A DNA stretch of 64,000 nt from Arachidicoccus soli (GTDB lineage Bacteria > Bacteroidota > Bacteroidia > Chitinophagales > Chitinophagaceae). Below the pieces are notes generated by a model that ran no database searches, was not told the origin of the DNA, and was given only the letters and a program-made list of their open reading frames with translations. Position 1 is the stretch's first letter. Every line of letters starts with the position of its first letter. The DNA lies in the NCBI RefSeq assembly GCF_003600625.1, contig NZ_CP032489.1, positions 3,906,001 through 3,970,000 on the forward strand, read 5' to 3'. A program made the translations under genes and the position numbers. This document shows, piece after piece, positions 8,653 to 38,873 of the stretch.

Positions 8653-9810
8653 CTATCTTTTTCTTCTCCGTTTTAAATAGAATTCTTCTTCCTCATCAAG
8701 GTGTTTATTTTTGTGTGTTGTACCTTCAGATATCGGCCTCAAGTCAAAAAGGTTGAGGTTAATTGGCAGATCGGCTACACTTACTGTATGTAATTCTTCC
8801 ATAGAGGGTATTTCTATAAGGGATTCAAAACCCTCCGTTTTTTTTATGGAAGATTTATTTGCCAAATCTTCTTCTTTAATAAGATAGTCCATCTTCATCA
8901 CATCACTACCTTTGTATACCTCTTTATGTTGATGGTCTATAAGTGAATAACCGTAAGGATTTTCTTTGTCTTTGCCGACAAAAAAACAGAACTCCAATCC
9001 AAAGTTTTCTTTCAGGAAATCTGTTAATTCACTATGAAACTTTAAAGGCGAAGTTGAATAACTTACTGTTTGGTTACTGTTTAATCTGGAATTACAATTT
9101 CTTTTATACTTGTAAATAAGTGCTTGCAACTGCCTGATATGAAATGCATGATTATTATCCGAAAGAATTTTATCAGACAGCTTCCGGATCTGAATACTAC
9201 CCTGCTTTTTTCCGTATTTATAAAATACAAAAAACTCTCCGTCCTTTTTGACGCTATATCCTTCTCTTTCCATTAACAAGGAAAACTGTGCTGCGGTTGT
9301 TATCTTGTATGCAAGAGCTGTGTGCAAATGCAGATTAAACTCCTCGGTTGTATTTCTACCTAACAAGGTATTCAGATAATGATTGGCTCTTTTTTTCTCA
9401 TAACTATCTTTTATTTTTTTGCCATTAAGACCAACCCTGCTTGTAACCACGTGGACATGATTATTCTCTGTGTCGCTGTGGGCAAATATCAACATCGGGT
9501 TATCACTATACCCCAGATGGTCCATAATTTTTAAAGCAATATCCTTCAATGCTTCATGAGAGAGATTTTTTCCTTTTGCACTGCAAACACCGTGAAATAC
9601 CGGTTTCTTGATATGCTTATTTCTTGATGAATATTTTTGCAAATACACCTCAAACTCTTCCTTAGAAACATGCTCTTTGTGTTGCAATGCGCCGAAGTTT
9701 TCAAAATAAATAAGCTTTGCATTGCCAGCAATTACCTTTTTAGCATTGTAGTTCACTGCACGAAATTTGCCGCCGGCGGCATCCATGATGATAAATGTTG
9801 CACTATCCAT
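8653..9810 (-). CDS. Relaxase / mobilization nuclease (MobB-like)
   Basis: This 385-aa protein is related to Bacteroidota relaxases. The N-terminus has GGKFRAVNYNAKKV; residues 70-80 (PVFHGVCSAKGK) and LIFAHSDTENNHVHVVTSRV near 108-127 supply the histidine cluster that binds the metal at the nicking site. A catalytic Tyr in the N-terminal third (Tyr21 or Tyr35) is plausible. The relaxase nicks the origin of transfer and leads the strand into a recipient. Its start codon overlaps the stop of the upstream mobilization protein gene by one base, so the two form one operon. It is shorter at the C-terminus than conjugative relaxases, fitting a mobilizable rather than self-transmissible element. Confidence 0.82.
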   Translation of the reverse strand: MDSATFIIMDAAGGKFRAVNYNAKKVIAGNAKLIYFENFGALQHKEHVSKEEFEVYLQKYSSRNKHIKKPVFHGVCSAKGKNLSHEALKDIALKIMDHLGYSDNPMLIFAHSDTENNHVHVVTSRVGLNGKKIKDSYEKKRANHYLNTLLGRNTTEEFNLHLHTALAYKITTAAQFSLLMEREGYSVKKDGEFFVFYKYGKKQGSIQIRKLSDKILSDNNHAFHIRQLQALIYKYKRNCNSRLNSNQTVSYSTSPLKFHSELTDFLKENFGLEFCFFVGKDKENPYGYSLIDHQHKEVYKGSDVMKMDYLIKEEDLANKSSIKKTEGFESLIEIPSMEELHTVSVADLPINLNLFDLRPISEGTTHKNKHLDEEEEFYLKRRRKR

Positions 9811-10205
9811 CAGAACAAATGATTGTTTAAAATTTCAGCAATACTGTCGCGTTTCACGTTATACTCTTTCAATACTTGCAGCAATGCAAGAAACTCCCCT
9901 TCTTTCATTTTTTTATCTGCATTGATTTGGCGAATGGCGACCGTAAGCTGGTTAATATTTTTTCCGATATAATTAATCTCTTTGGCAAGTGCATACACAG
10001 CCTCAAATTTTTGCTGCTGCATCTCGTGCTCTTTATATCCAACCGGCAATCTCCTAATCAGGTTGAGAATACACAACGACATACTTGTGTTGTTGGCCTC
10101 TGCAAGGCTTTTCAGTCTTTGTTTATCGGCATTGCTTATCCGGAAAATAAATGATCTGCCAGACGGCGGCTTTATCTGTTTATTTGCTTTTATTTCACTA
10201 TTCAT
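9810..10205 (-). CDS. Relaxosome accessory protein (MobC/MobA-like)
   Basis: This 131-aa basic protein has a ribbon-helix-helix-like start (RSFIFRISNADKQRLKSLAE) followed by MSLCILNLIRRLP and a long helical tail (AKEINYIGKNINQLTVAIRQ). The NYIGKNINQL motif is the MobC-family signature in mobilization operons. It would bind near the origin of transfer and recruit the relaxase encoded directly downstream. Stop and start codons of the pair overlap. The 348-bp region upstream, between it and the divergent partition operon, is the natural place for the origin of transfer. Confidence 0.82.
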   Translation of the reverse strand: MNSEIKANKQIKPPSGRSFIFRISNADKQRLKSLAEANNTSMSLCILNLIRRLPVGYKEHEMQQQKFEAVYALAKEINYIGKNINQLTVAIRQINADKKMKEGEFLALLQVLKEYNVKRDSIAEILNNHLF

Positions 10206-10278
10206 TTAAAGTCTATATTAAGCAAGTTATACAATTTTGAAGTTGCGCCAATTTCCCGCTCTCTAAGCGAGCAGGATG

Positions 10279-10303
10279 GTCTTTTGTTGTATATACAAAA
10301 GAC
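10279..10303. repeat. Inverted repeat next to mob genes
   Basis: The arms GTCTTTTGT and ACAAAAGAC are perfect 9-mers around TGTATAT. The symmetry suits a relaxosome-protein site or the hairpin beside a nick site. Confidence 0.5.
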
Positions 10304-10495
10304 ACATCTTGTCGGGTTGCCCGGGACATAAATCAATATTTTACTCCTGCCTGTAAAATGCTACAATACTCTACAAAAAAGGACATTAAGTAACATAGAT
10401 GATTCATATAATTCCATCAAAAAGAACATAGCGAAACAAAAGGGAACAAGAAATGACAAAATATTATGGTTTAGGAACGAGAGGGAATTTTTTAT

Positions 10496-10525
10496 TTTGA
10501 AATATAAATTATAATTCTACATTTG
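10496..10525 (+). promoter_or_regulatory. Bacteroidota-type promoter for the partition operon
   Basis: TTTG at 10496-10499 and TACATTTG at 10518-10525 are separated by 18 nt, close to the Bacteroidota consensus (TTTG, 19-21 nt, TAnnTTTG). The surrounding sequence (TTATAATT ... ATAATTATAA) forms an imperfect palindrome over the -7 box and could be an operator. The first gene starts 28 bp downstream. Confidence 0.5.
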
Positions 10526-10553
10526 TATAATTATAACAATTATTTATAATCAC

Positions 10554-10916
10554 ATGGAGCCTTTTGATAAAGAATTTGGTAGAGAGAAATTGCTACAGAG
10601 CCAGTACGGCCAATTTGATTTAATCGAATATTTCTTTCCTTCCGAACAAATCCTGATAAGTAAACCACGTGTACTCATGCAGCAAATCAACAAGTATTTT
10701 GACCTGCCGGAAGGCACTATTAATCCTACGGTTTTTCGTGCATGGCTGCGCCGTTATAAAATAAGATATAATTCAGCAAAAACGAAAGAGACTCTTCTTG
10801 AAGCGGAAGAAGAGACTGTGTCGGAGAATAATGAATGGAAAAATTTTAGGCTCTCCGATTCTTCCGATATACAGCTTAAAGAAACCATCATTAAGGTCAT
10901 TAAAGATAACAAGTAG
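10554..10916 (+). CDS. Hypothetical protein preceding ParA-like ATPase
   Basis: This is a 120-aa acidic-tailed protein with no family I recognise. Residues 45-80 (QINKYFDLPEGTINPTVFRA, then WLRRYKIRYN) look like a small DNA-binding helix-turn-helix with basic residues, and the C-terminal 40 residues are charged and helical. It is the first gene of a four-gene run before a ParA-like ATPase. In partition cassettes this position often holds a DNA-binding partner, so a ParB-like or regulatory function is possible; that is inference from context only. Confidence 0.6.
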   Translation: MEPFDKEFGREKLLQSQYGQFDLIEYFFPSEQILISKPRVLMQQINKYFDLPEGTINPTVFRAWLRRYKIRYNSAKTKETLLEAEEETVSENNEWKNFRLSDSSDIQLKETIIKVIKDNK

Positions 10917-10952
10917 CAACAATCCTTTTCCTCAATATCTAAATTCAACAAC

Positions 10953-11669
10953 ATGAAAACATTTTATTTCAACATTCAGAGCAAAGGCGGTGTAGGCAAG
11001 TCTATGCTGACCTACTTGCAGGCGTTAAAACATGAATTCAATGAACGGATCGCTTTTGTCGACTTGGATGGCAGAAACCAAAGCACAACTAGACAATTAC
11101 ATTTTTTAACAAAGCAGGATTTACCAAGGCTCTTTTCTGTTGATATATTTAATAGTCAGGATAAGATAGACCGGGAAAAGATATTTGATGTATTACAGGC
11201 ATTTAAAGAAAAAGCCTATGATGAAATATACATTGACTTTGGCGGACATGAAAGCACACAGCTGTTATCACTTTTATCCCTTGACTTTACAGCTGATGAT
11301 TTTAAAGAGTTCGAAAAGATGCTGAATGCAAAGTTTGTTTTTAATGTTATTATTTCAGGAGCCACTTATTATACGACAACGCTTCAATATTTAAAAAGCC
11401 TTATGGATATAGTTTCAAGCAAATTCGAAATTATTGTCTGCCTGAATGAATGGTCGTTTCAAAACTTTGAATACAGGATTGACGAAATACAAGAGTTCGC
11501 CAAGAAGTCCAAAGGTGTTGTCCGCAAGGTGGTCACCTTTGGCAATATACATTTGGACACTAATTCCGGATTAGTTATAACGGAAAATATACTCAATGGC
11601 AGAGGCATAGATGGTTACACGACCTATGTCTCAAAAAAAATCATCGACAAAGAAACCAAAAAGGTATAA
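10953..11669 (+). CDS. ParA-like P-loop ATPase of a mobile element
   Basis: The 238-aa protein has a deviant Walker A motif at its start (SKGGVGKSMLTY), RIAFVDLDGRNQSTTRQL and DEIYIDFGGHES as Walker B, matching the ParA/MinD/Soj class. Unlike the classical KGGxGKT, this Walker A ends in Ser. Such ATPases segregate plasmids and integrative elements or place conjugation machinery. It sits between a small putative DNA-binding protein and a membrane protein. In Bacteroidota mobilizable elements this ATPase often accompanies a Toprim protein, as here. Confidence 0.8.
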   Translation: MKTFYFNIQSKGGVGKSMLTYLQALKHEFNERIAFVDLDGRNQSTTRQLHFLTKQDLPRLFSVDIFNSQDKIDREKIFDVLQAFKEKAYDEIYIDFGGHESTQLLSLLSLDFTADDFKEFEKMLNAKFVFNVIISGATYYTTTLQYLKSLMDIVSSKFEIIVCLNEWSFQNFEYRIDEIQEFAKKSKGVVRKVVTFGNIHLDTNSGLVITENILNGRGIDGYTTYVSKKIIDKETKKV

Positions 11670-11673
11670 TCCA

Positions 11674-12045
11674 ATGAATGACTATAAAAGAACACTGGAA
11701 GAGTTTAGAACATTTTACAAAACGAGGTATGATGTAACCCTCGATGACGAAATTCTGTATTTTATTGTCCGTGTAAATGAAATGCAAGTGTCATTGAAAA
11801 AAGAGATAACATCCATACCAAAGCTCACATTCAAATCCGGTAAAGATTATTTTATGTTCGGATTGGGCAAAACCATTTTGCCGGCTGCAATCTTTCTTAT
11901 TGTGTGTATCGTGATTATTTGGTTAGTATCAAACAGCATTTCGGGTGAACACCTGCATTCAAGCGTTGTAATGAAGTCTCACATACCATTTCTGAAAATC
12001 GTTTCAGACAGTTCCGAATATTTAATGCCCCTGCAAAAAAAATGA
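11674..12045 (+). CDS. Single-pass membrane protein of the mobilization module
   Basis: The best start is the ATG at 11674, giving 123 aa (MNDYKRTLEEFRTFYKTRYD); the longer frame from 11611 would overlap the ParA-like gene by 59 bp. Residues 1-55 are charged and helical. Residues 65-92 (LGKTILPAAIFLIVCIVIIW) form one membrane helix. A short polar tail follows, predicted outside or periplasmic. I do not recognise a family. Its place between a ParA-like ATPase and a Toprim protein suggests a membrane anchor for the transfer or partition complex, which is inference. Confidence 0.6.
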   Translation: MNDYKRTLEEFRTFYKTRYDVTLDDEILYFIVRVNEMQVSLKKEITSIPKLTFKSGKDYFMFGLGKTILPAAIFLIVCIVIIWLVSNSISGEHLHSSVVMKSHIPFLKIVSDSSEYLMPLQKK

Positions 12046-12067
12046 TGGCTAATTTAAAACTTCGATA

Positions 12068-13012
12068 ATGAACAAAGAATTAAAAACATTTCAGGAATTT
12101 AGAAATGAAATTTCTATTATAGAGTTGGCGGTTGCCAACGGATATCACATTGTAAGAAACGCAGGATTAAAATATCCTGTTTTAAAAAATAATACTACGG
12201 GTGATAAAATCATTATTGTAAACGCTCAATCTACTTCCAATCAAGGATATTTCAATCCACGTGATGACAAAGACAAAGGGACGCTGATAAACTTTGTCCA
12301 CTACAGGCTGGGCACATTATTCCCCATGATGAGCGGGCAGACAGATGCCAAAAGTATCAATGCCATATTGTACGATTATTTAAGGCTTCCCATATCCAAA
12401 AGAAATAGGTTACTTGAAAAGACAACCAGCATTATTAAACACTATCAAGAAAGGAAATTTATTCTTCCTGGTTGGATAACGCCTTTGAACGATACTTCTT
12501 ACCTTCAGTCCAGAAGAATTAACGATAAAACCATTTTTGACGAAATTTTTAATGGAAGGATTTTCAACGCATCGGTCGGCGGTTTCTGTAACATAGGGTT
12601 TCCGTACTATGACAAAAACGATCATATCATTGGTTGTGAATTACGAAATACCGATTTCAAGAAAATGCTATCCGGTTCCGACAGATCCAATAGTGTCTGG
12701 CATTCAAACCTTCCGGAAAATTTAGAATCAGTAATACTCACAGAAAGCCCGATTGATGCGCTTTCTTATCACCAGTTAAAGGGAAAGAAAGATTCTATGT
12801 ATGTGTCTTTTGGGGGCTCTGTTTCGGACAAACAACTTGATTTACTCAATGAGGTTTTTTCTTCAATCAAAGAGAATCCAAATTTCAAATATTATTCTGC
12901 TGTGGATAATGACGCAATGGGCCGTATTTATACAGAGAAATTTGGGAATTCTCTTCATAAGCTAGTAGTGGAAGATTTTCCCAGAAATAAGGATTATAAT
13001 GAAGAATTATAA
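12068..13012 (+). CDS. Toprim-domain protein of a mobile element (DUF3991/primase-like)
   Basis: The 314-aa protein begins with a CHC2-like region lacking cysteines (GYHIVRNAGLKYPVLKNNTT). It contains NQGYFNPRDDKDKGTLINFV, as in Bacteroidota mobile-element primase-like proteins. The C-terminal half is a Toprim domain: SVILTESPIDALSYHQLKGK supplies the catalytic Glu, and YYSAVDNDAMGRIYTEKF supplies the DxD-type acidic pair. It probably assists replication or priming of the transferred strand. It is the last gene of the partition-like run. A relative with the same architecture is encoded at 54809-55732 in the second accessory islet. Confidence 0.75.
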   Translation: MNKELKTFQEFRNEISIIELAVANGYHIVRNAGLKYPVLKNNTTGDKIIIVNAQSTSNQGYFNPRDDKDKGTLINFVHYRLGTLFPMMSGQTDAKSINAILYDYLRLPISKRNRLLEKTTSIIKHYQERKFILPGWITPLNDTSYLQSRRINDKTIFDEIFNGRIFNASVGGFCNIGFPYYDKNDHIIGCELRNTDFKKMLSGSDRSNSVWHSNLPENLESVILTESPIDALSYHQLKGKKDSMYVSFGGSVSDKQLDLLNEVFSSIKENPNFKYYSAVDNDAMGRIYTEKFGNSLHKLVVEDFPRNKDYNEEL

Positions 13013-13341
13013 AAGAAAAAACTTCTTTAATCCATAAGAAATTTATAAAAGCACTTACCCATTTTATGACATAGAACAGAAGAAAGTTTATAAATATTAT
13101 GGTTTAATTTAGAATATGAAAAACTTCTTTTAATACTGCCGGCGATAATTGCAATTAGCATAACTGCCAATGGGCAGTAAGTTGCATGAGTACTTCTGCA
13201 AAACGTAATTAAAGCAATAGACAGTCACCACATTCTAAGTTATAGTATAAAAATTATCAAATAATGGCACTAAATAGTCTCATTTTAATACCAAAGTATT
13301 TACTCCTAAAACTATATCTTTGTCTAGCATTTTAGAATGAT
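13013..13341. other. Intergenic stretch with one promoter-like box
   Basis: There is no coding sequence here. TATCTTTG at 13315-13322 fits the Bacteroidota -7 element and lies 20 bp before the ThiF-like start; the matching upstream TTTG is not evident. The rest is AT-rich with no strong repeat. Confidence 0.4.
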
Positions 13342-14094
13342 ATGGATATTTACAAAAGAAATCGAATATACATCAACGAACCAGATCAAGCTAAGCTTAG
13401 AAATTATAAAGTTTTGATTGCAGGGTCCGGTATTGGAAGTGTAATTGCCGAATGTGCATTAAGACTGGGTTTTGAAAATATAACCGTTGTAGACGGAGAC
13501 AAGGTTGAGCTAACAAATTTAAACCGTCAGAATTATATTTACAAGGATATAGGTAAGACCAAAGCTGAAAGCATTGCAATGCGATTAAGAAGTATTAATC
13601 CAAATGCAAATATTAAAGTGTATGACCAATTTATAACTAGCGAGAATATCACTTCTTTTATTGAGCAATACGATGTTGCAATTAACGCGCTCGATTTCAC
13701 GTCTGATGTACCATTTAAATTCGACGAAGCCTGTCAATCGAAAAATATTCCTGTGCTGCACCCATACAATATTGGTTGGGCGGGGTTGGTGTTTGTGGTT
13801 ATGCCTAACGGGAAAAATCTTGGTTATCTTTCAAACGATTATCATCAATTCGAAAAAGAAGTAATTCATTATGTTTTGGAAAATATAGATAAAGTTCCTA
13901 AAACAAAAGAGTGGTTGGAACATGTTCTTTCTGAATATCTAAAAGAAAAGGAAATTCAATCGCCTCCTCAACTTTCTATTAGTTCTTTTTTATTAGCTGG
14001 CGGCTGCACACATCTACTTTATAAGTTAGCATTAAATAAGCCTGTCAAAGCATTCCCTGAATTTTATATTTTTGGATTAGAAGATTCCTTCTGA
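13342..14094 (+). CDS. ThiF/MoeB-family adenylyltransferase (E1-like)
   Basis: The 250-aa protein has the ThiF/MoeB/UBA E1 adenylation core: VLIAGSGIGSVIAECALRLG for ATP binding, DGDKVELTNLNRQNYIYKDI with the conserved Asn, Arg and Gln, GKTKAE, and INALDFTSD. These enzymes adenylate the C-terminus of a ubiquitin-like protein or peptide. The usual zinc CxxC pairs and a clear catalytic Cys loop are not visible, so it may only adenylate, as in the MccB subset, rather than form a thioester. No ubiquitin-like partner gene is seen nearby. It lies tail-to-tail with the LuxR-type regulator and may belong to the same signalling locus. Confidence 0.75.
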   Translation: MDIYKRNRIYINEPDQAKLRNYKVLIAGSGIGSVIAECALRLGFENITVVDGDKVELTNLNRQNYIYKDIGKTKAESIAMRLRSINPNANIKVYDQFITSENITSFIEQYDVAINALDFTSDVPFKFDEACQSKNIPVLHPYNIGWAGLVFVVMPNGKNLGYLSNDYHQFEKEVIHYVLENIDKVPKTKEWLEHVLSEYLKEKEIQSPPQLSISSFLLAGGCTHLLYKLALNKPVKAFPEFYIFGLEDSF

Positions 14095-14172: not shown

Positions 14173-14934
14173 TTATATAAAATTATAATTTGCGGCATAG
14201 GAAATTGCCTCTGTTATATTTCTAACATTAAGTATTTGAAAAATTTTCTTCCTGTGAAATTTAATTGTATTTACAGTGAGAAATAATTGATTAGCAATTT
14301 CAGACATTGTTAATCCTTGGCAACTTAATATTAATATCTCCTTTTCAATTGCTGTTAGTTTTAAATCTGACCGTAATTTCCATAACTTTTCTTTGAGATC
14401 ATATTGATATACCTTCTCACTTTTATGTTTTCTGATGAGTATATTTCCTGATTTATTGTCTGATGAAGTAGAAACATAGCACAGCGCCAACCAAATATTG
14501 CCGGATTTATCCAATACTAAAGGTGCAAGTTTATGATTAATCAGAAGCGGATGTGAATTGGGTTGGACAATATGGAAGTTATAGGATATACTATATTTCT
14601 TACGGTCTTCCATTTTGATATTACTGTAAAAAGCAAATCCCGCTTGATTTATTTCCAATAAAAGTTCAAGATCCTCTTCCGGAACATACTTTAAATAGAA
14701 ATTATATCCCATTTTCATTACTACTTCTGGTGTATTCCCGCATAAAAGGAGAGGGTTATCAGATACATATATGAACCCCCTACGATAATAATCTATAATA
14801 TAGACGCTTTGATAAGTTAAATGAGAAGCCAATTCTATTGCTCTTACATACGGCTTTATTCTTTCATAATCCTGATCTGAAGGATAATCTTCCAATTTGA
14901 TTGGTCTGAAAAAATCATTAACAGTCGATTGCAT
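14173..14934 (-). CDS. PAS-like/LuxR-type transcriptional regulator
   Basis: This 253-aa protein has an N-terminal sensory region of PAS type (SVYIIDYYRRGFIYVSDNPL, then KYVPEEDLELLLEINQAGFA) and a C-terminal LuxR HTH (LTAIEKEILILSCQGLTMSE, then IANQLFLTVNTIKFHRKKIF). No receiver domain or classical autoinducer-binding domain is present. It is transcribed away from the acyltransferase gene at 15077. The 142-bp space between them holds a perfect palindrome with 16-bp arms. The likely role is to sense a small molecule or redox cue and to bind that palindrome. The link to an acyl signal is inferred from gene order only. Confidence 0.85.
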   Translation of the reverse strand: MQSTVNDFFRPIKLEDYPSDQDYERIKPYVRAIELASHLTYQSVYIIDYYRRGFIYVSDNPLLLCGNTPEVVMKMGYNFYLKYVPEEDLELLLEINQAGFAFYSNIKMEDRKKYSISYNFHIVQPNSHPLLINHKLAPLVLDKSGNIWLALCYVSTSSDNKSGNILIRKHKSEKVYQYDLKEKLWKLRSDLKLTAIEKEILILSCQGLTMSEIANQLFLTVNTIKFHRKKIFQILNVRNITEAISYAANYNFI

Positions 14935-14973
14935 ATTGTAAAGTTAAAAAATTAATTCTTAGAAGTAAAAACC

Positions 14974-15009
14974 CTTACAAAAACTACCCAAATGGGTAGT
15001 TTTTGTAAG
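14974..15009. promoter_or_regulatory. Perfect palindrome, candidate LuxR operator
   Basis: CTTACAAAAACTACCC (14974-14989) and GGGTAGTTTTTGTAAG (14994-15009) are perfect inverted 16-mers around AAAT. The site lies 39 bp before the LuxR-type start codon on one side and 67 bp before the acyltransferase start on the other, so it can control both. Degenerate copies of its core (ACTACCC, N4, GGGTAGT) occur at 34141-34158 and 38527-38560. A terminator role is unlikely in a divergent promoter region. Confidence 0.7.
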
Positions 15010-15076
15010 AAAAAGCTAAACTAAACGATGTTAAAGTATTAGCAAAACTAATTTAAAGACTTAAAAATTAATTAAA

Positions 15077-15692
15077 ATGATAAAGATTACAAAGCTAAAA
15101 AAAACAGCTCTATGAATTAGCAAAATTCATCGTTAGGGAAAACCACATTCATCATCTTTCTATTCCCTATAGAGAAACAGATTTCTTAGACGAGATAGTC
15201 TCCCTTTACAAAGAAGATTTATCTGTCTATGACAATTCTGTATTTTATGTCGCCCGAGACAATTTTGACATTGTAGGATCCGTAAAAATCACATTATGGG
15301 ACAGGCACACAATCTTACCCATTGAAAAACTATTTGACTTAAAAATCAATAATATTTTTCAAAGTGGTGAATTGAATAATATTTGGCATGTCGGGCGTTT
15401 CGCTATTTGCAGAAGCAATGGAATATTGTTACTAAAGAAATTGCTTGTTATGGCTATTTCAACGATATGCAGCGAAACAAATAGTTTAATGGTAGCCGAA
15501 TGTGATAAAAAATTTGTCAAAGTGCTCAACCTGATAGGAATAAAAACAGAGATATTAGCTCCTTCTGTTTTTTATCTGGGGTCTGAAACACTTCCCATTT
15601 TTTCAACTTATGAGTGGCTATATAGTTTTTTATGTCAAGCTATTCCAACATTACCATTGGCGGATACGATAAGCTTACTGCAAGCAGTTTAA
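15077..15692 (+). pseudogene. LuxI/FeeM-like acyltransferase, frame interrupted at an A8 tract
   Basis: Starting at ATG 15077 (MIKITKLK), the frame shifts at a run of eight A (15097-15104). With seven A it would read through to 15692 as 204 aa, the usual length of acyl-homoserine-lactone or N-acyl-amino-acid synthases. The uninterrupted downstream frame is open from 15099 but has no start codon before TTG 15372, which argues the 5' part is real. Visible features are VFYVARDNFDIVGSVKITLW, then LPIEKLF and IWHVGRFAIC, resembling the E-x-S/G-R-F segment of LuxI/FeeM-type GNAT folds. It may be phase-variable, a recent pseudogene or a sequencing error. It is divergent from a LuxR-type regulator. 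Confidence 0.6.
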
Positions 15693-15850
15693 TATTTTTT
15701 CAATCCGACATATAGTGTTCACATAAACGAGGATGCCCATAAAATAAGGCAGAAGAAGAACAGATTACTACTCTTTTGGATAGTTTTTTTCATTTTGGAG
15801 TTCCTTTTTGAAGAAAATGTTTTACCAAATTCTATTTTTGAATTTGAATT

Positions 15851-16294
15851 ATGAAAAAGACTTTAAACATAATACATTATTTATTCATCATTTTATGGGT
15901 GTATGCAGCCATCATTAAATTGGTCGATTACAGAGCATTTTTAGACCAGTTGAGAATGCAACCATTGCCGGATTGGTCTATTTCATTTTTAAGCATTGCT
16001 TTACCGGTTGGGGAATTAATATTGGCTGTTGCTCTCCTTTTCAAAAAAACCTTTTATTTAGGACTAATCGTTTCATTCGCATTAATGCTTTCATTCAGTA
16101 TATATGTGCTGCTTGCTCTCGGAGGAACTTTTGGTGAAATTCCATGTGCTTGTGCAGGAATTATCGGTAGACTTCCTTGGAAAGCGCATTTAATTTTCAA
16201 TACTTTCTTTACTGTACTCGCACTTATTGGTCTGCTTATCATTAAAAAATTAAAGGGAGAATATTTAATAAAGCATAAGCCTTTAACTGCCTGA
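15851..16294 (+). CDS. MauE/DoxX-like redox-associated membrane protein
   Basis: The 147-aa protein has four predicted membrane helices (starting near residues 8, 45, 72 and 117). The motif IPCACAGIIGRLPWKAHLIF carries the Cys pair typical of the MauE/DoxX redox subset in Bacteroidota. Related proteins support disulfide chemistry of exported proteins. It is 158 bp downstream of the acyltransferase and is followed by a small secreted protein with two cysteines, a plausible substrate. A thioredoxin-like gene lies a few kilobases away (21661-22254), strengthening the redox theme. Confidence 0.75.
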   Translation: MKKTLNIIHYLFIILWVYAAIIKLVDYRAFLDQLRMQPLPDWSISFLSIALPVGELILAVALLFKKTFYLGLIVSFALMLSFSIYVLLALGGTFGEIPCACAGIIGRLPWKAHLIFNTFFTVLALIGLLIIKKLKGEYLIKHKPLTA

Positions 16295-16433: not shown

Positions 16434-16829
16434 ATGAAACACATGCAAAAAATCGCACCGTTTGCTGCAATGGCAGTGGGCGTAGTGCTGGCACTTGCAA
16501 CAAGTGCATTTAATAAAGTTCCAAAAAACAAAAGCGGAGACACGTTATATACTTTCCAATACAACGCCCCTGTCACTAACCCATATTCCCAAACGAATGT
16601 GGAGAATAAAGCAAATTGGTCATACACTGCTGGCACACCCAGTTGTGACGATAATGATCAACAAGCCTGTTCTTTTGAAGTCAGCAGTAACTCTGTAGAT
16701 ATCCCTACAATGGGCGATCCTACTTTAAAAAGCAGTTTTTCCATTACTGCACAAGAGTATGATCCCAGCGATTATTATGTTGGCTCTACTTCAGATAATG
16801 ATGCAACCATTGTGAATAAATCACTTTAA
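16434..16829 (+). CDS. Small secreted protein, DUF6520-like
   Basis: The 131-aa protein has a signal peptide (IAPFAAMAVGVVLALATSAF) and a mature part with exactly two cysteines (PSCDDNDQQACSF). This pattern matches the Bacteroidota DUF6520 family of short exported proteins of unknown role. Two nearby cysteines downstream of a MauE-like membrane protein suggest a disulfide. A strong hairpin terminator follows 19 bp after the stop. The ATG at 16434 is preferred; a second ATG three codons later is also possible. Confidence 0.7.
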   Translation: MKHMQKIAPFAAMAVGVVLALATSAFNKVPKNKSGDTLYTFQYNAPVTNPYSQTNVENKANWSYTAGTPSCDDNDQQACSFEVSSNSVDIPTMGDPTLKSSFSITAQEYDPSDYYVGSTSDNDATIVNKSL

Positions 16830-27513: not shown

Positions 27514-30500
27514 TTATCTTGTTGGATTTCCAAATCTAATTTTAAACATTTGAGAACTTAAAGCATCTTTTACCGTAATATAAATAGTAGGAATATTACC
27601 ATTTGAAAATGTGTTTCTAAAGAATACTTGTGACCCGTATTTGCCTAGCTTAAGCTTAAATAAATTTTCACCTGTTTGTATAAGTGTAGCATCACTTCCG
27701 TAATCACCATTAGTAGTAATATTTTTAAATATCAGATCAATATCATTTTCGCTTGGGTCTAAAAATGCCTGTAAATCTCCCGCTCTAGTCGAAGACAAAT
27801 AGCCATTTTTTTCTAGCCAACCTAGTAATTTTTGATAATCATTTATTTCATTAGCTTCGCTTAGAAAATTTCCTTTCAGTTCTCCTATAGAAGTACTCCC
27901 AAACGTCAAAGGTTTTCCCGTTAAGACATGTTCATCATTAGCCCAAGATGACAAACCACCATTTACTGCGCCCAAGCCACCACCTAAAGCCGCGCCTACC
28001 AACGCAGAATTCAATCCCTCATTTAAACTTTGACCTAAACCTTCACCATTTACCATTCCACCTAAAGCTCCGCCTGTGAATCCTGCAGCTGCTCCCCCCA
28101 CCAATGCTTGTGTACCTATTCCAATTGCTCCGCCTGTAATACCTGTAGCGTTAGCTAACACTGATCCTGCATAACTTCCTACAGCTTGCCCAACTCCACC
28201 AGAAACTCCTCCTATAATTGCCCCAGCAGCAATTTGACTTATGCTCCCTCCAGCAACCCAAGCGTTTCCTGCTCCTGCGATAGCTCCCGCAGCAATTGGC
28301 CCTCCATATTCAAAAGCAACCCCACTTACAAAACCGGTTCCAATGTAACCAAGCGCTTGCCCAAAATTATGTACATTTCCTGAAATCAACTGTGTACCAA
28401 AGTTAATTAAAGCTCCAACAGTTCCGAAAATTAAGTCATCAATTCCAAATATTTCACCCGACGGATCAGTATATATTAGGGGGTTATTAATGCAATATCC
28501 GTATCGGTTATAAGATTGAGAATTCCAAGGCTGCTGAATATAATTATCCGGGCTAAGCATTCTACCTGTTACTGGGTCATACATACGCCCATTCATATTA
28601 ATCAACGCGAACTGCGCCAGATGCTCATGCCCAGTATAGCCTCTGTATAACCAATCTGGCACGGAGGGTATGCCTGTGTAAGTCCAGTTATCTGGATTTC
28701 TGTTCCTACCCCAAGCATCAAAATTCTGTTGCGCTACAATATCGCCTAACGTATCGGTTACTTTTAAAATACTTCCTAAATGGTCGCTATATACAAAATA
28801 GGGAGTTATAGCACTTCCTTCTTTTACAATAATTGCACAAAGTCCATTGCCCGCATTGATATAATGAATATCTCTTGTAATACCTCCTTTTATCTGCCTT
28901 TCAAACGCACCCAAGTAGTATTTGGTTTCTACTACAGTACTGCCTTGTTTCAATAAGCTTTTGATCCTTTGATAGTCTTGTCCATACGTATAACTAAGCT
29001 TATACCCGTTCTGAGAAATAGTATCAGCCTTTAAAAAAGGTGTGTAAGAGATATCCTGTTGATTTTGTGATATTACGCCAGGAGGTGTCTGTCCCCCGGT
29101 AGTGGAGGTAATATATTTTACAGCATTGATTTTATTATTATCATAGACATAATTCCCCACATCAGATCTTGTGGCTATATTACCCAAGGAAGTGCCGCCC
29201 GTATTATCATAGCTCATCGAAAACTGGGCAACATTATTGACACTTGCACCCGTCAGCCTATTCAGGTTGTCATAAGTAAAAGTTTCTGTCAGATTTTTGA
29301 TGGAGTCTTTCCGTGATAACAAATTACCTGTCTGCGCGTCAAAATTAAAGTTTAAATCCTGAATCCCGGGCGTATAATAACGGCTGGGTGCACTCTTTAC
29401 CAAATCATAAGTAACCGTAGAAGATTTACCGTTTCCATAAGAATAGCCGGTATAAATCCCTCTGCTATTCATGGCTGTTGCTGTAAACAAGGTCTTTTCA
29501 GCACCACTGCCCATGGTCGTTTTGGTAAGGATGCCGTTTTTATTATAAGTATCATTGATAATAACGCCTGACGGGTAAGTTGTTTTTATCAAATTACCAT
29601 AGCTGTCATAAGCCATTGTTTTAGTAAAAGTAGTCCCATCAAAAACCACCGATTCCGATGTTGGTCTAAATAAATTATCGTATAAATAATTAGTCACATC
29701 TCCTGAGAAACCAGTTATCTGAGTAATATTGTCATTGCAATTACCAGAAGAGGTATTGTTATAATAAGTGTAAACAATGCTACCTTCAGGCCCAGAGTGT
29801 GTTGTCATCCTTCCAAAAGCGTCATAAGCAACGGTATAAACATGACCTAAAGCATCTGTCTGTTTGGTTACTTTACCCAAAGCATTGTATTCGTAGGCTA
29901 TAGTACCGGCATTCTTATCTGTCATAGAAGTTTGCCTTCCATAGGCATCATATACAGAAGAAACAACCGTATTACTACCTATGATTACAGATTTTTGGTT
30001 GCCCCAACTATCATAAGTAAAGTTAATCTGCCCGCCATTGTCATTGGAGGTAACAACTTTACCAGCTGCATCCTGCGTTTTACTAGTTGACTGCCCAGCC
30101 CCGTTGGTGGTTGTAACTTTATATTGCCCCCCAGGTAGTTTGCTATAACCAATTGTTACCGAGCTGGCGCCATTTGAAGAACCTGTCAGCCTCCCGTAAT
30201 TATCATAAGTATTGATAGTAGTTATTAATGTTTCATTGGCATAATAAGGCTCGGTTTGCGAAGAAAGATTACCCTTATAATCATAATTATTAATCTGTGT
30301 TAACAATTGATTATTAAAACCACCATTTTCTTTCTTTATTTCCCTATTTAATACATCATAATATTGTTTTGAATACATTCCTCCATCTTCTGCCCTCTGC
30401 ATCGTGGTAGAATATCTTGCATTTCCTGATGTTTCCCAATTAAGTGCTTTGGTAATCTCATTTCCATCGGGTAAGATCGTTTTAATCAACCTTCCAAAGC

Positions 30501-33500
30501 TATTATCATAAGTATAACTTGTTGTTAGTCCATCGGAAGAAGTGGAGGTCGCCGGCAAGCCCCATTCCGGCTCGTAAGTATACGTTTCCGTTTTAGTTAT
30601 ACCACTACCAACTGCCTGCTTTTTGGTCAAAAAACGTCCTGTATTGTCATAAGTATTGACAACTGTAGGTGTAAGCGTATTGGGCGCATTGACAGCGATT
30701 GTTTTAACATTTCCAAAATTATCGTAAGTCTTTGTTGTTGTTGTTGCCAAAGCTGTACCATTCCAATCTGTTGATGTCAGTACATTCCCTTTAGCATCAT
30801 AAGTATAAGCCATTTGTTTATTTGCCGCGCTTTGCCCACTACGGGTGTTGCTTATAGTTACCAACTCCGGGGCAGCTGGCACCGGTGTGCCATGAATACC
30901 ATAAACCGTTGTAGAAGTATCTGTTTCGACAGGAATAATAGATACTCCTGACATATACCCGTTCTTAGTTGTATTAGAGGTAATATTTCCATAATTGTCA
31001 TAGACATTTGAATTCTCTGTAGCGGAACCGGTCAAATTATCAATACTTAATGTTTTGAGGATTTGATGGACATATCTTTTATCAAGATAATTTGAAGACA
31101 CCTTCAATAGTGTGTCAGAAATTTTAGTATCACTTAAAGTATCAATACTGTAAAGTGTCAATTGTCGAACCGTATGTGGTAGTAACAAAGAAGCATCAAT
31201 CTCCGCGATATTATGATTGGAAATTCCGCTGGCATAATCATAAGTATCCAATTCCTTAAAGCCAAGAAAGCCTCTTTTCGGACTATAAACAGCATCCCGA
31301 TAATTATACGCTACTGTATTGGAACCACCGATGCCGTTAGGTTCATTTACATCCGTCAAGAGATACATGGGTGATTTCAAAACGTTATAAATAACTCCAT
31401 TTTGACCCAGAGTTGGCGAAGTGCCCGGGTCATCATATTCGTAAATATATGATCGTTGGTAATTACTTGACCTGTTCATTAAATCATAGTCATAAGTTGT
31501 CGTATTACCAAAGCCATCAGTAGAAGAAGTCATTAAATGATCTTCTTTAAATGGCTTAGGGAAAATAATCTTACTGGTCGTACCCAAGAGAGACATTACG
31601 TCGGGCTTTCCATCTCCATTTATATCTCCAGAAATAGTTCCAGTGGAAGCCGATTTGTTGACGGTCTCTGATTTGTTATACTCTTCTTCGGTAAAAGCTG
31701 CTAATGAATTTTGTCCGTCTGGTGGTATACCCTCACTATAATTGATACAATGTATAGAATGCAATCCACCACTCGCATTATCCAAAGAATGCCAGATATC
31801 TGACCTGCCGTCTCCATTTAAATCACCAACCATTAATAGATGAGCATTAGAGACACCATTATCCCCATCAAGATATACTCTGTAATGCCAAATAAAAGGA
31901 TAAGATTTAAAAGCCTTACCTGTACTATATAGGATATTCCAACTTGCAGTTGGATCATCTTTAGATGACCTTACTAATAAATCGGCCTTTCCATCCCCAT
32001 TAAAATCGCCTGGGAAAACCCGATAACCCGATTTAATATCAGTGGTTGTATAAAGGATTGTAGAGGAGATGAGGCCGCCGGTACCGGCAAAATTGAGCGA
32101 TAGGATGTAACTTTGATTGGCTTTTTCAACAAGGATTTCCGTTTTCCCGTCACCGTCAAAATCTATCGGGATTACATCTGACGCACTTGCAACTGATGTT
32201 GCGTAAAATGGATCGGTAGAAGTACCTTCTACCCCAAATCCACTTATTTCCTGATTAAATATCCCTTTTTTGGGACATGAGTAAAAAGCTTTAAAAGAAT
32301 TGGACGGGTTTATGCCAAGAATTAAAATATAGTCCTGTGTGCCGTCCCCGTCAAAATCTCCGGAAATAAAATTTGTACCAAAATAAGTACCCGTACTTGA
32401 AGAATAGGTTGTATAAGCATACTTAAAAGCATTACTATAACCGGTAGAATGTGGGATGTCACTATAAACCTGACTTTGATAAGTATTTCCCACAATTGCC
32501 CCATAATATTTTGAATAATTAATAGTAATATTATTAAACGCCATAGTTGCACCCGAAATAGTCCAATTTGATAATAAAACATCCGCTTTACTATCCCCAT
32601 TAAAGTCTTCAGTAGAAAAGGAATTTGTTTTACCATAGGGTTCTATATGCCTTTGATAGGATAATTGACCAGATTTAGTGGGATCCGTTGTATCCGGAAA
32701 ATAATAGGAATAGGCAATTCCTATAGCAGCCCCACCATTATAAGTAGAAAAATCATCAAAAACTGCATAGGATTTGTAATGAGGTACGCCATTATTATCT
32801 ATGCTATAATACCCTCCAATAACATCATCCTTTCCATCACCAGTAATATCTCCTGTGAATGTATTATTATAGTTGAACTGTCCATAGGAAGGAGAAATGT
32901 CCACATCTGAAGCTGAGGTATCAGATCCATAAGTAAATTTTAAAGGATTCAGACTTGTTCCATCTGCACCTATTTCGGTGACTGATTGAAGAAATTCTTG
33001 ATTGTGCAAGGAGTGGTATGCACATTTATATGATTCAACAATGCTACCGGTTGAATTTTCTACAGATATTTGGTCAAGATTCCAGGGACTAACTAATGAC
33101 GCCCCTCCTTGAAATACTTTATGTTTTTGCCAGTCAGGGTCAGAAAAATAGCTAAATAATATTTTATTGTAAGGTGCAGTGGCCGTCACTGTATTACCCG
33201 TATAATCTATTTCCATCAAATTAAAATATCTATCCTGACTCTGAATATTATATTTGTAATCTATATAGTTGCCATTTTTATCTGTGATTTTATTTAGCAA
33301 CCAGATCATAGTACTTTGATTATCATCTGTCCACATTTTGCTGTTACTTGCATTTCCATATTCCATTTGAGTACCATCTTTAAGAGTTACCTTAAACCAT
33401 TCTGGACCAGATGTCTCAGTACCGCCGAAAGACTCTATTTTGGCAAAGCTTTCGTTCTCAGTACCATAAACTGTTCCGTCATTTCCATTGTCTCCAGAAA

Positions 33501-33909
33501 TAGGAAATAATCTTTGGCCATTTAAAACAAATGCATCATTTGTATTTGTATACGATACAGGTGCGGCTTTGCTATTATAATAATTACTCTTACCTGCACG
33601 GGAAATGGCGGAATAGGCAGATAAGCTCCACCCCCAACCTGCAATTCCATCTCCACCTTGTGATGAATAATTAAGGCTTATGCCTGGCTGTAATCCATTT
33701 ACGCCAGGTAGCACTTCTATGGGTATTGAATAGCTAACACCCCCTGTTCCATTTTCGCCGCCACCACCTTTTGGTGTACCGACTGGTTTTGATAAATCGA
33801 TTGTCGCCTGCGAGAATAGAAGATTTGGCACTAAAAAGCAAACGAAGAAGAAAATGTTATATCGGTTCTTTACGGCAATAAAAAATCGGTAAAATTTATT
33901 CATAAACAT
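27514..33909 (-). CDS. Giant SpvB/FG-GAP/RHS polymorphic toxin protein
   Basis: This 2131-aa protein has a signal peptide ending LLFSQA near residue 35, then an SpvB/TcaC-type N-terminus (GLQPGISLNYSSQGGDGIAG, then WGWSLSAYSAI). Next come multiple FG-GAP/VCBS calcium-binding repeats (DGDGTQDYI, DFNGDGKADLLV and others, about residues 340-790). Many YD repeats follow. The RHS core ends near residue 1820 (YDPVTGRMLSPDNYIQ, then YTDPSGE). After this boundary comes a glycine-rich hydrophobic stretch to about 1990 and a distinct C-terminal tip of about 140 residues, the probable toxic domain. The start may be the ATG at 33903. The candidate immunity gene follows immediately. No export apparatus is in the window. 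Confidence 0.92.
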   Translation of the reverse strand: MFMNKFYRFFIAVKNRYNIFFFVCFLVPNLLFSQATIDLSKPVGTPKGGGGENGTGGVSYSIPIEVLPGVNGLQPGISLNYSSQGGDGIAGWGWSLSAYSAISRAGKSNYYNSKAAPVSYTNTNDAFVLNGQRLFPISGDNGNDGTVYGTENESFAKIESFGGTETSGPEWFKVTLKDGTQMEYGNASNSKMWTDDNQSTMIWLLNKITDKNGNYIDYKYNIQSQDRYFNLMEIDYTGNTVTATAPYNKILFSYFSDPDWQKHKVFQGGASLVSPWNLDQISVENSTGSIVESYKCAYHSLHNQEFLQSVTEIGADGTSLNPLKFTYGSDTSASDVDISPSYGQFNYNNTFTGDITGDGKDDVIGGYYSIDNNGVPHYKSYAVFDDFSTYNGGAAIGIAYSYYFPDTTDPTKSGQLSYQRHIEPYGKTNSFSTEDFNGDSKADVLLSNWTISGATMAFNNITINYSKYYGAIVGNTYQSQVYSDIPHSTGYSNAFKYAYTTYSSSTGTYFGTNFISGDFDGDGTQDYILILGINPSNSFKAFYSCPKKGIFNQEISGFGVEGTSTDPFYATSVASASDVIPIDFDGDGKTEILVEKANQSYILSLNFAGTGGLISSTILYTTTDIKSGYRVFPGDFNGDGKADLLVRSSKDDPTASWNILYSTGKAFKSYPFIWHYRVYLDGDNGVSNAHLLMVGDLNGDGRSDIWHSLDNASGGLHSIHCINYSEGIPPDGQNSLAAFTEEEYNKSETVNKSASTGTISGDINGDGKPDVMSLLGTTSKIIFPKPFKEDHLMTSSTDGFGNTTTYDYDLMNRSSNYQRSYIYEYDDPGTSPTLGQNGVIYNVLKSPMYLLTDVNEPNGIGGSNTVAYNYRDAVYSPKRGFLGFKELDTYDYASGISNHNIAEIDASLLLPHTVRQLTLYSIDTLSDTKISDTLLKVSSNYLDKRYVHQILKTLSIDNLTGSATENSNVYDNYGNITSNTTKNGYMSGVSIIPVETDTSTTVYGIHGTPVPAAPELVTISNTRSGQSAANKQMAYTYDAKGNVLTSTDWNGTALATTTTKTYDNFGNVKTIAVNAPNTLTPTVVNTYDNTGRFLTKKQAVGSGITKTETYTYEPEWGLPATSTSSDGLTTSYTYDNSFGRLIKTILPDGNEITKALNWETSGNARYSTTMQRAEDGGMYSKQYYDVLNREIKKENGGFNNQLLTQINNYDYKGNLSSQTEPYYANETLITTINTYDNYGRLTGSSNGASSVTIGYSKLPGGQYKVTTTNGAGQSTSKTQDAAGKVVTSNDNGGQINFTYDSWGNQKSVIIGSNTVVSSVYDAYGRQTSMTDKNAGTIAYEYNALGKVTKQTDALGHVYTVAYDAFGRMTTHSGPEGSIVYTYYNNTSSGNCNDNITQITGFSGDVTNYLYDNLFRPTSESVVFDGTTFTKTMAYDSYGNLIKTTYPSGVIINDTYNKNGILTKTTMGSGAEKTLFTATAMNSRGIYTGYSYGNGKSSTVTYDLVKSAPSRYYTPGIQDLNFNFDAQTGNLLSRKDSIKNLTETFTYDNLNRLTGASVNNVAQFSMSYDNTGGTSLGNIATRSDVGNYVYDNNKINAVKYITSTTGGQTPPGVISQNQQDISYTPFLKADTISQNGYKLSYTYGQDYQRIKSLLKQGSTVVETKYYLGAFERQIKGGITRDIHYINAGNGLCAIIVKEGSAITPYFVYSDHLGSILKVTDTLGDIVAQQNFDAWGRNRNPDNWTYTGIPSVPDWLYRGYTGHEHLAQFALINMNGRMYDPVTGRMLSPDNYIQQPWNSQSYNRYGYCINNPLIYTDPSGEIFGIDDLIFGTVGALINFGTQLISGNVHNFGQALGYIGTGFVSGVAFEYGGPIAAGAIAGAGNAWVAGGSISQIAAGAIIGGVSGGVGQAVGSYAGSVLANATGITGGAIGIGTQALVGGAAAGFTGGALGGMVNGEGLGQSLNEGLNSALVGAALGGGLGAVNGGLSSWANDEHVLTGKPLTFGSTSIGELKGNFLSEANEINDYQKLLGWLEKNGYLSSTRAGDLQAFLDPSENDIDLIFKNITTNGDYGSDATLIQTGENLFKLKLGKYGSQVFFRNTFSNGNIPTIYITVKDALSSQMFKIRFGNPTR

Positions 33910-34261
33910 GTTATTAAATTAGATTAGCAGAAACAGAGCAATATTATTGAACAGCCATTCAAAGCTTAAACAGTTTATAGACGAATGAGTAATTATTTAA
34001 AGCACAAAAGATTAGCTTAACGAGGCAAATTCCTTACTGGTCATTTCATATTTTAGACAACCCAATTAAAAACCTTATCAGAAACAAAAATATATTCTTG
34101 AAATATCAGGTGTTCATTTTTATCCGATATTCTTTAAAAAACTACCCGAATGAGTAGTGCTCTTTATAATTTTCTATCTGAAAATGTTTCCAAATAGAGA
34201 AACAATAAACGTCAGCAGGAAACAAACCGGGTTGCCTATTTCACTATCCCTCAATAAGAAT
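33910..34261. promoter_or_regulatory. Upstream region of the RHS gene
   Basis: These 350 AT-rich bases lie between the RHS start and a transposase relic, and no gene is visible. A degenerate ACTACCC palindrome lies at 34141-34158. I cannot mark a -7 box with confidence on the minus strand. Confidence 0.4.
34141..34158. promoter_or_regulatory. Second ACTACCC palindrome, upstream of RHS toxin
   Basis: ACTACCC (34141-34147), GAAT, GAGTAGT (34152-34158) is an inverted repeat with one mismatch, preceded by an A-run as in the perfect site at 14974-15009. It lies 232 bp before the RHS start codon and may bind the same LuxR-type regulator. Confidence 0.45.
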
Positions 34262-35440: not shown

Positions 35441-35833
35441 GTAAGCTTTATACGCTTTTACCGATTGATATTTCTTGATAAATTTTTGAACGATAAGTTT
35501 TATACGCACCACGGGACGCGAAAAATTGGAACATCTAATTCAGTTTGTGGATAACCAGGCGTTTTCTTTCCCTTTTATTCATAAAATTTATCTTTTTTAA
35601 TTTTATCCAGCTTAAAATTCCAGTTGATAAATATTTGTAGAATCATGAATTGATACTTGTAGGGCAGAAAAATTAGGTTTAAAAAATTGATTTTCAATGA
35701 GTCAGACAAAAAGGCTGTAAGCGTTGTACGCATTTTTGTAAGGTTTATACGCATAAAAGCAAAAGCATGTAAGCGTTATACGCAATAGTGGTAAGTTTCA
35801 TACGCGTTATTTTTTCAGGTAAGTTTTATACGC
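35441..35833 (+). repeat. Seven iterons of a plasmid-type replication origin
   Basis: Seven 15-bp direct copies of about GTAAGnTTTATACGC start at 35441, 35493, 35717, 35738, 35769, 35791 and 35819. Differences are confined to the middle bases. The last five are tightly clustered (21-31 bp apart) and the seventh overlaps the 3' end of the Rep gene, encoding its RIKLT tail. Together with a DnaA box and an AT-rich patch this fits an iteron-regulated origin recognised by the neighbouring Rep protein. Confidence 0.85.
35546..35554 (-). promoter_or_regulatory. DnaA box within the iteron origin
   Basis: TGTGGATAA is the exact complement of the DnaA box TTATCCACA. It sits between iterons 2 and 3, next to the AT-rich region around 35570-35640, as in Rep_3-type plasmid origins. 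Confidence 0.7.
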
Positions 35834-36987: not shown

Positions 36988-37067
36988 ATTAAAGACGTTG
37001 TATTCTCAATTAATTATGCATAATACAGATAAGTTTTTAGGTAGTTATATGCATGTGTCTGATAAGA

Positions 37068-37409
37068 TTAGGACAATGCATTTATTACATTTTGGAGTTG
37101 ATGTACATAACTAATTTTATACCCCTCAAATAAATACCATCCCTTTAGTTTTGCTTTCTCTTTATCACAAAATCGAATGGGCACTTTTATCTTTCCTGAA
37201 TAACGCCAATAATTTGATTTGATCTTTTTAAACCCCAATTTCTCTAACCAATAATCATTAATAGGAATACCAATTATATCTCGTTCGTCGTCTGTATGCT
37301 CTTTGTTATCTAATTGAATAACGCCGGATTCAATAATGATAACTTTGCCATGCTTTAATGCATCGATTGCTTTTACAAAATTCCCTATGGATAATAGATG
37401 AGATTTCAT
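37068..37409 (-). CDS. Mobile-element hypothetical protein
   Basis: This 113-aa protein contains IGIPINDYWLEKLGFKKIKS and ends KISYVHQLQNVINAL. The Ip-Ltx-WLxxxGF and YVHxLQN pattern recurs in Bacteroidota phage and plasmid proteins of unknown function. It is cytoplasmic with no signal. It lies 5 bp after the HTH gene at 37415 and upstream of the Rep gene on the same strand, so these three probably form one transcript. Confidence 0.6.
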   Translation of the reverse strand: MKSHLLSIGNFVKAIDALKHGKVIIIESGVIQLDNKEHTDDERDIIGIPINDYWLEKLGFKKIKSNYWRYSGKIKVPIRFCDKEKAKLKGWYLFEGYKISYVHQLQNVINALS

Positions 37410-37414
37410 GAATT

Positions 37415-38799: not shown

Positions 38800-38873
38800 T
38801 GGGCCCACTCGGGCTTGAACCAAGGACCCCCTGATTATGAGTCAGGTGCTCTAACCAGCTGAGCTATAGGCCC
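38800..38873 (-). tRNA. tRNA with CAU anticodon (Met elongator or Ile2)
   Basis: The minus-strand 74-nt sequence starts GGGCCTATAGCTCAGCTGGT and ends with the complementary TGGGCCCA arm. It has a normal D arm, the anticodon loop CTCATAA (CAT) and a TTCAAGC T loop. CCA is not encoded. A CAU anticodon in a non-initiator tRNA may be Met elongator or lysidine-modified Ile2; sequence inspection cannot decide. Its 3' end faces the accessory region. Confidence 0.9.

Follow-up and report, generated by a model that had tools for sequence, protein, structure and literature searches.

We propose that a three-gene module of Arachidicoccus soli is a self-regulating acyl-signal circuit, which would be of the LuxI/LuxR type in function while being built of other parts; on the grounds of sequence comparison and predicted structures we give this reading a probability of about 0.6. 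The module lies in the window, that is, the whole stretch of 64,000 nucleotides that was analysed (positions 3906001-3970000 of the single 4.10-Mb contig of a genome that is 100% complete). It consists of a gene for a ThiF/E1-like adenylating enzyme of 250 amino acids (13342-14094, + strand), the proposed signal cyclase; a gene for a 253-amino-acid regulator with a PAS-like sensor and a LuxR/GerE helix-turn-helix (HTH) domain (14173-14934, - strand), the proposed receptor; and a divergently oriented gene for a FeeM/AHL-synthase-like acyltransferase, the putative synthase, whose reading frame is broken near its start (ATG at 15077, + strand). A preliminary description of this DNA had reported the LuxR-HTH gene, a palindrome and the frame-broken acyltransferase, all of which are confirmed here, and had taken them for a Bacteroidota acyl-signal circuit. 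Its divergent pair of genes stands, although the third gene, that of the ThiF/E1-like enzyme, had been overlooked; the circuit itself is supported by fold, neighbourhood and boxes, and its chemistry is what we infer. The signal would most likely be an oxazolone.

Gene content of the locus

Downstream of the acyltransferase gene the window encodes a MauE-family membrane protein (15851-16294, + strand; PF07291, 101 bits) and a small protein that looks exported, its N-terminus being signal-like (16434-16829, + strand; a weak DUF6520 match, E 0.003, below cut-off), both being putative targets of the circuit, followed by SusC/SusD-type genes on the opposite strand. A relaxase gene is found at 8653-9810, with a weak NikA-like match and a DUF3991/Toprim gene within 8653-13012, and a Rep3_C match (35815-36987) and an HTH_17 gene (region 35815-37756) lie on the module's other side; because of these neighbours, an integrated mobilisable element may carry the module. 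A search of the window for a repeated tRNA-Met end, such as would mark an integration site, found no direct copy of at least 14 bases, a plasmid search with the acyltransferase gave zero matches, and none of the 12 pattern matches on viral contigs was a relative.

Folds of the three proteins

The body of the acyltransferase (15099-15692, + strand) comprises 197 amino acids, and the 204 codons given by the preliminary description after a one-base skip were reproduced. A structure search with the AF2 model of the frame-corrected protein (pLDDT 87) returned FeeM and AHL synthases as the best fold matches, the predicted structure showing both the FeeM and the AHL-synthase fold. The LuxI/FeeM-like interpretation made earlier from the letters is supported by this comparison, in which no unrelated enzyme took the lead, and the R-F segment on which it leaned is present at its place as IWHVGRFAIC. 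FeeM (PF21926) is the sole Pfam family listed for the window acyltransferase at E up to 1 (E 6e-4; 20 bits, under the 27-bit curated cut-off), the LuxI profile giving no match, and 9 of 10 aligned family members match PF21926 at E up to 0.1 (best 1.1e-7).

The ThiF-like protein scores 136 bits with PF00899 (cut-off 28.1) and is 44-74% identical to nine aligned relatives. Residues D53, N59, R62, Q63, K74, and D118, which we take to have catalytic or nucleotide-site roles, are invariant in the 10 aligned sequences; the profile and the conserved nucleotide-site residues place the protein in the ThiF/E1 superfamily. Its close homologues of solved structure are two sequences (9egb and 9egc/9egd, E 5e-83), the molecule names of which give no function, and no open paper naming these PDB entries was found.

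The regulator matches the GerE HTH profile with 48.4 bits (cut-off 23.5), as do 9 of 9 members of its family. Its AF2 model (pLDDT 89) has a PAS-like domain N-terminal to the LuxR HTH, the architecture of VqmA. The best structural match is 3clo, a Bacteroides regulator with a LuxR DNA-binding domain; ranks 3-10 of the fold listing are occupied by the quorum-sensing receptor VqmA or phage VqmA, PAS domains come next, and the AHL receptors RhlR and SdiA enter from rank 21 (E 3e-4). Taken over both domains, the rmsd is large, owing to a different placement of the domains relative to each other. No autoinducer-binding domain was found in the window regulator at E up to 1, and the list of 19 families matched by the nine members at E up to 0.1 contains none either; this agrees with what had been read from the sequence at first, a PAS-like sensor in place of a classical AHL-binding domain.

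Distribution of the module

The acyltransferase (own genome counted) is present in 3 of 196 relatives, 3 of 396 genomes of the order, 10 of 394 genomes of a family draw (two weak matches and one fragment included), 3 of 12 genomes of the genus of G358 (G and L numbers being our handles for genomes and loci) and 12 of 395 of the phylum, and a search of genome contigs gave 10 loci; a second family draw (7 of 393 at E 1e-10) brought no new system. These search sets overlap, and 24 systems were taken from them. Left uncounted were an identical truncated 1529-bp fragment in G355 and G673; L023, a near copy of L020; the weak hits G073 and G276, distant or non-homologous; and the duplicates L015-L018 and L024 (of G005, G287, G044, G219, and G892). 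The two truncated copies (L033, 1831-3359, and L037), being identical over 1529 bp in two genera, point to recent transfer or shared contamination.

The co-occurrence of regulator and acyltransferase, for which the preliminary description had proposed a neighbourhood survey, is borne out: in 22 of the 24 systems the two genes are no more than 3 kb apart, the exceptions being G287 and the second copy of G757. For ThiF the distance is no more than 3 kb in 17 of 24 systems and 8.6-11.9 kb in G1001, G693, G966, and G763, and in G907 the gene is on another contig; it was not found in G287, and none was seen in the 8.9-kb Proteiniphilum locus. G287 has the acyltransferase and the box (see below), a regulator of this family was not found there at E 1e-15, and the gene adjoining the acyltransferase shows only weak likeness to the regulator (E 3e-4). 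The second copy of G757 has ThiF without regulator or box. L056 (6938-8423) holds a divergent acyltransferase and ThiF pair that is free of regulator and box, possibly a second branch, with L063 (of G073) being similar.

Lux-like boxes

Between the divergent genes the preliminary description had seen a perfect palindrome with 16-bp arms. The palindrome (14974-15009, strandless) is indeed perfect, its arms being 100% complementary, but these are 17 nt long (14974-14990 and 14993-15009), with 2 nt between them. It recurs at the same place in G005, of the same genus, where both arms carry matched changes (ACTATCC..GGATAGT vs ACTACCC..GGGTAGT in the window), and this conservation is more than chance. 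Inside the palindrome, 5' of the acyltransferase gene, is the core box CTACCCAAATGGGTAG (14984-14999), which keeps its position in relatives. The core reads CTAYMC-N4-GKRTAG, with CT and AG 12 bases apart; this is the spacing of the lux box, a palindromic 16-bp CT-N12-AG element.

Of the 24 systems, 20 have the box, scored as YTAYMCNNNNGKRTAR with one mismatch allowed, 5' of the acyltransferase, and 8 have it 3' of that gene, at its end and ahead of the next one; of the 17 nearby thiF genes, 10 have it on their 5' side. Among 1025 background tiles, each of 310 bases and taken from these loci, 24 match; because the pattern was chosen after part of the loci had been viewed, the p-values are too good, and the background uses the same pattern. 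Palindrome core and gene pair, on whose joint conservation the earlier proposal was made to depend, recur together in most of the systems. The systems without a match 5' of the acyltransferase are G044, G219, Crp329, and the second copy of G757; G219 has CTGTCCATTTGTACAG at this place and CTGTACATTAGTATAG at thiF. In the Bacteroidales loci of B. pyogenes, P. macacae, and Proteiniphilum, TTACCC..GGGTA forms prevail. Box pairs 37-38 bp apart occur in 12 of 24 systems, the window having none. The GC-containing stem of the palindrome with A/T runs on both sides would also suit a bidirectional terminator or hairpin instead of a protein site. We deem this quite improbable, given that the palindrome lies between divergent starts, that arm mismatches in several relatives weaken the stem while CT-N12-AG is kept, and that the copies come in pairs of such regular distance.

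A second box of the window, CTACTCTTTTGGATAG (15768-15783), lies between the acyltransferase and mauE, and boxes are likewise placed in 7 relatives. The candidate 5' of thiF, CTATATCTTTGTCTAG (13312-13327), is weak and uncertain: it keeps CT-N12-AG only and misses the one-mismatch threshold, and that the window's own thiF carries just this weak box speaks against the circuit. Two further sites are distal. CTACCCGAATGAGTAG (34142-34157; one mismatch), 233 bp 5' of a gene (27514-33909, - strand) that encodes a 2131-aa RHS-repeat/SpvB-like protein, could be a chance match; CTACCCAAAAGGATAG (38536-38551), inside AAAAAACTACCCAAAAGGATAGTTTTTT, is near-perfect with A/T flanks and lies between an XRE-like gene and tRNA-Met (38799-38873), with no evident target gene. 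The window contains 4 core sites at no more than 2 mismatches, 0.43 being expected, a number reached in 0 of 100 shuffles. Genome-wide, the exact degenerate core is matched at 14984 and at 38536, 2 sites that fall within the window (reversed control, 3), and the strict box at one mismatch has 4 (reversed control, also 4). A genome-wide regulon was rejected, the totals being no higher than in the reversed control; only the clustering in the window counts as evidence.

The putative signal

The pairing of an acyltransferase with a ThiF homologue has a precedent in oxazolone synthesis. According to the sections of PMC10404671 used here, TyzA of M. tuberculosis acylates amino acids, with tyrosine and phenylalanine as its best substrates, the ThiF homologue TyzB carries out an ATP-dependent cyclisation, and an oxidase then desaturates; OxzA and OxzB of P. 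rubra act likewise to the Tyz enzymes. For TrzS, the part of PMC12856293 drawn on has cyclisation before desaturation, a cyclised, saturated intermediate being formed when the oxidase step is blocked, and likens acyl-oxazolones to AHLs. Because a FeeM-type acyltransferase with ThiF is the known acyl-oxazolone pair, our best guess, by analogy, is that the signal would be an acyl-oxazolone autoinducer. The characterised oxazolone clusters include a flavin-dependent oxidase (PF00881), fused or adjacent. In all 13 genomes searched, its gene was missing at distances of up to 19 kb from the module on the contigs examined, the range being shortened by nearer contig ends in at least G044, G219, G358, and G949. 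PF00881 genes occur elsewhere in 12 of the 13 genomes, and the oxidase was rejected as a hidden partner, its genes being far from the module. As the oxidase is lacking within 19 kb, a saturated oxazolone is the simplest guess.

There is a real, though lesser, chance that the signal is no oxazolone but a plain N-acyl amino acid, a lactone or an acyl-AMP-derived conjugate. The missing oxidase would fit such a product, as would the absence of ThiF from G287 and its distance (9-12 kb) in four other systems, and the ThiF superfamily also covers peptide- and protein-modifying E1 enzymes. Opposed to this are the acyl-oxazolones shown to come from the acyltransferase and ThiF pairing and the ring closure that takes place even with a blocked oxidase step, as far as the cited parts of PMC10404671 and PMC12856293 (pairing) and of PMC12856293 (ring closure) go.

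Genes downstream in relatives

Of 18 loci examined, 9 have natural-product genes of the RiPP, SdpB or NRPS type 3' of the acyltransferase, and none of these 9 belongs to the Chitinophagaceae clade of the window; such genes are absent downstream in the clade relatives G005, G044, G358, and G219 (4 of 4 examined). Profile scans detected a class I lanthipeptide precursor in G753, an NHLP-leader peptide above cut-off in G1001, an SdpB-family match well below cut-off in G757, a C39-peptidase ABC transporter in G844, and NRPS in G907, and judged by eye only, G693 and G966 have NHLP-like and G970 and G580 SdpB-like genes. At the one-mismatch threshold the 3' box is absent in G1001, G693, and G966. 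L058 (10717-11500) has a series of three near-identical small precursors behind the module, of which the first matches class I lanthipeptide.

The RiPP and NRPS genes adjoining the module in some relatives may also be taken to mean that enzyme and regulator form a local pair whose product is an internal lipid or a building block of an antibiotic, and not a cell-cell signal. The PAS domain could sense something else, and in the cited part of PMC12856293 the acyl-oxazolones of M. tuberculosis have no proven signal role and tryptazolones are intracellular. We hold this to be rather unlikely: the box is found on the synthase, on thiF and ahead of the downstream genes, and the trio of synthase, cyclase and receptor is kept together in front of widely differing downstream genes. 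A self-regulating signal circuit is the reading that we retain.

A frame break at an A tract

From its ATG (15077) the acyltransferase gene encodes MIKITKLKKTAL and then stops (15077-15115, + strand; stop at 15113-15115), having run through a tract of eight As (A8, 15097-15104), where the frame must change and which is the proposed site of slippage or phase variation. The other frame is open from 15099 to 15692, with its first ATG, GTG or TTG not before 15372. The five intact relatives have a similar peptide here, which ends in LKK or VKK. In the window and in G005 the A8 tract joins the ATG peptide and the body in the wrong phase, the body frame having a stop just before, and the join is likewise out of frame in G287 and G044 (A8) and in G358 (A7). 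G219 also has A8, but needs the opposite phase: five loci require +1/-2 and G219 requires -1/+2. An identical +1 shift across all relatives was rejected on account of the -1 of G219. The truncated copy of G355 and G673 has A6. The break is thus at the same site, an A7-A8 tract, in 6 of 6 intact members of one Chitinophagaceae clade. In a tree of 23 rows, from which the truncated B. pyogenes gene was left out, a single branch (support 89/82) separates these six from the 17 rows that are in frame, a clustering reached in 0 of 500 shuffles.

The acyltransferase body has a dN/dS of 0.05 at a dS of 1.8 in the comparison of the window with G005 and is thus under strong selection, although it is out of frame in both; other pairs are more distant, their dS being mostly saturated, and the two computable ones gave 0.24 and 0.29. 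A break at the same site in relatives and a selected protein are both features of a conserved frameshift, the uniform change of frame being absent. Early termination of the zero frame after 12 codons and the existence of truncated copies (the fragment of G355 and G673, and B. pyogenes) would suit a decaying gene or a sequencing error, which we nevertheless regard as very improbable in view of this low dN/dS and of a break common to six separate assemblies; in particular, the break is hardly a sequencing error, because all six intact clade members share it and dN/dS is 0.05.

Two ways of restoring the frame are about equally likely: a slip of polymerase or ribosome, or a change of tract length in replication. 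All 17 in-frame homologues carry a hydrophobic residue five positions ahead of the first Leu/Ile of helix 1, and this spacing is restored by re-reading two bases (five loci) or one (G219), a forward skip shortening it. For this reason, if slippage occurs, it fits best that the transcript gains As or that the ribosome slips backward. RNA polymerase slippage that adds bases is described for runs of 9 As or Ts (PMC5009743, in its cited part). Against slippage, an internal TTG within the first 7 body codons of G287, G044, G358, and G219 could serve as a start without any frame change; it is absent in the window and G005.

Tract length may otherwise switch the synthase on and off among cells, the sequenced clade genomes being off. 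The odds that we would give such phase variation are not far short of even. The homopolymer is in the 5' part of the gene, and with random phase all six loci would be off with a probability of (2/3)^6 = 0.09. L020 (near 8080) and L023 (near 5152), Bacteroidales copies of the acyltransferase, are 98.8% identical over 1924 bp and differ in an A tract elsewhere in this gene, which is A9 and in frame in L020 but A8 and out of frame in L023; the difference speaks for phase variation, barring an assembly error, which is conceivable with two metagenome assemblies. Tracts of A7-A8 are short for a contingency tract, the break of G358 is kept with A7 only, and no in-frame clade member was found in the family searches, all of which speak against phase variation.

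The proposed circuit and its relation to known systems

We propose that the acyltransferase joins an acyl group, from an acyl-CoA or acyl-ACP donor, to an amino acid, and that the ThiF-like enzyme would activate the carboxylate with ATP and close a ring, the likeliest outcome being an acyl-oxazolone. This product would enter the PAS domain of the LuxR-HTH protein, a dimer of which may bind the CT-N12-AG box 5' of the acyltransferase/luxR pair, of thiF and of downstream target genes. Binding is presumed to activate rather than repress, and so to bring about positive feedback and turn on the neighbouring cluster, which in some relatives is a peptide or NRPS antibiotic cluster. In the Chitinophagaceae clade the synthase would be gated further at the A7-A8 tract near codon 9, full-length enzyme being made only upon a slip or a change of tract length. 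Against the circuit stand the missing oxidase, the FeeM profile score under the cut-off, the regulator's lack of a match to an AHL-binding domain, the incomplete systems of G287 and of the second G757 copy, and the four clade relatives with no natural-product genes downstream. The reading in which all these parts hold at once, Bacteroidota quorum sensing by a FeeM-like synthase and ThiF making an acyl-oxazolone, a PAS-LuxR receptor and lux-like boxes that control antibiotic-peptide and NRPS clusters, with an A-tract-gated synthase in Chitinophagaceae (by slippage or phase switching), is tentative, and we think it unlikely to be right in every part.

If true, this would be a compact Bacteroidota circuit that consists of two enzymes, one receptor and a defined box and recurs from family to family. 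Such a circuit would offer a handle on silent antibiotic clusters in Bacteroidota, and the common frame break would add a case of a signal synthase possibly set by slippage or phase switching. We know of no established LuxI/LuxR-like circuit of Bacteroidota, and among the matches listed in open PubMed Central papers (subscription papers being outside the scope) there was no published account of the module. It would also suggest a role for acyl-oxazolones, the function of which is still open in the cited part of PMC12856293.

Similar to the LuxI/LuxR systems, the module has an adjacent synthase and HTH regulator, an AHL-synthase fold and a CT-N12-AG box; it differs in having no AHL-binding domain and no LuxI profile match, and in its third gene, ThiF. 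The window acyltransferase is 9% identical to the N-acyl amino acid synthase FeeM, with a profile score below cut-off. The regulator shares with VqmA, the DPO receptor of Vibrio cholerae, the PAS domain, the LuxR-type HTH and the fold of a small-molecule receptor, at 16-18% identity; to our knowledge VqmA is not paired with an acyltransferase. The closest counterparts in gene content, OxzA/OxzB of Pseudoalteromonas rubra and TyzABC and TrzAS of M. tuberculosis, likewise have a FeeM-type acyltransferase adjoining a ThiF-like enzyme (cited parts of PMC10404671 and PMC12856293), the arrangement seen within 3 kb in 17 of our 24 systems, whereas the Bacteroidota module has in addition a LuxR-HTH regulator and a common box and is without a flavin-dependent oxidase nearby. 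Finally, a frame change also gates a quorum-sensing-linked circuit on the mobile element ICEMlSymR7A, where, in the cited part of PMC5009743, +1 ribosomal frameshifting makes the excision activator FseA, whereas here the frame change hits the putative signal synthase.
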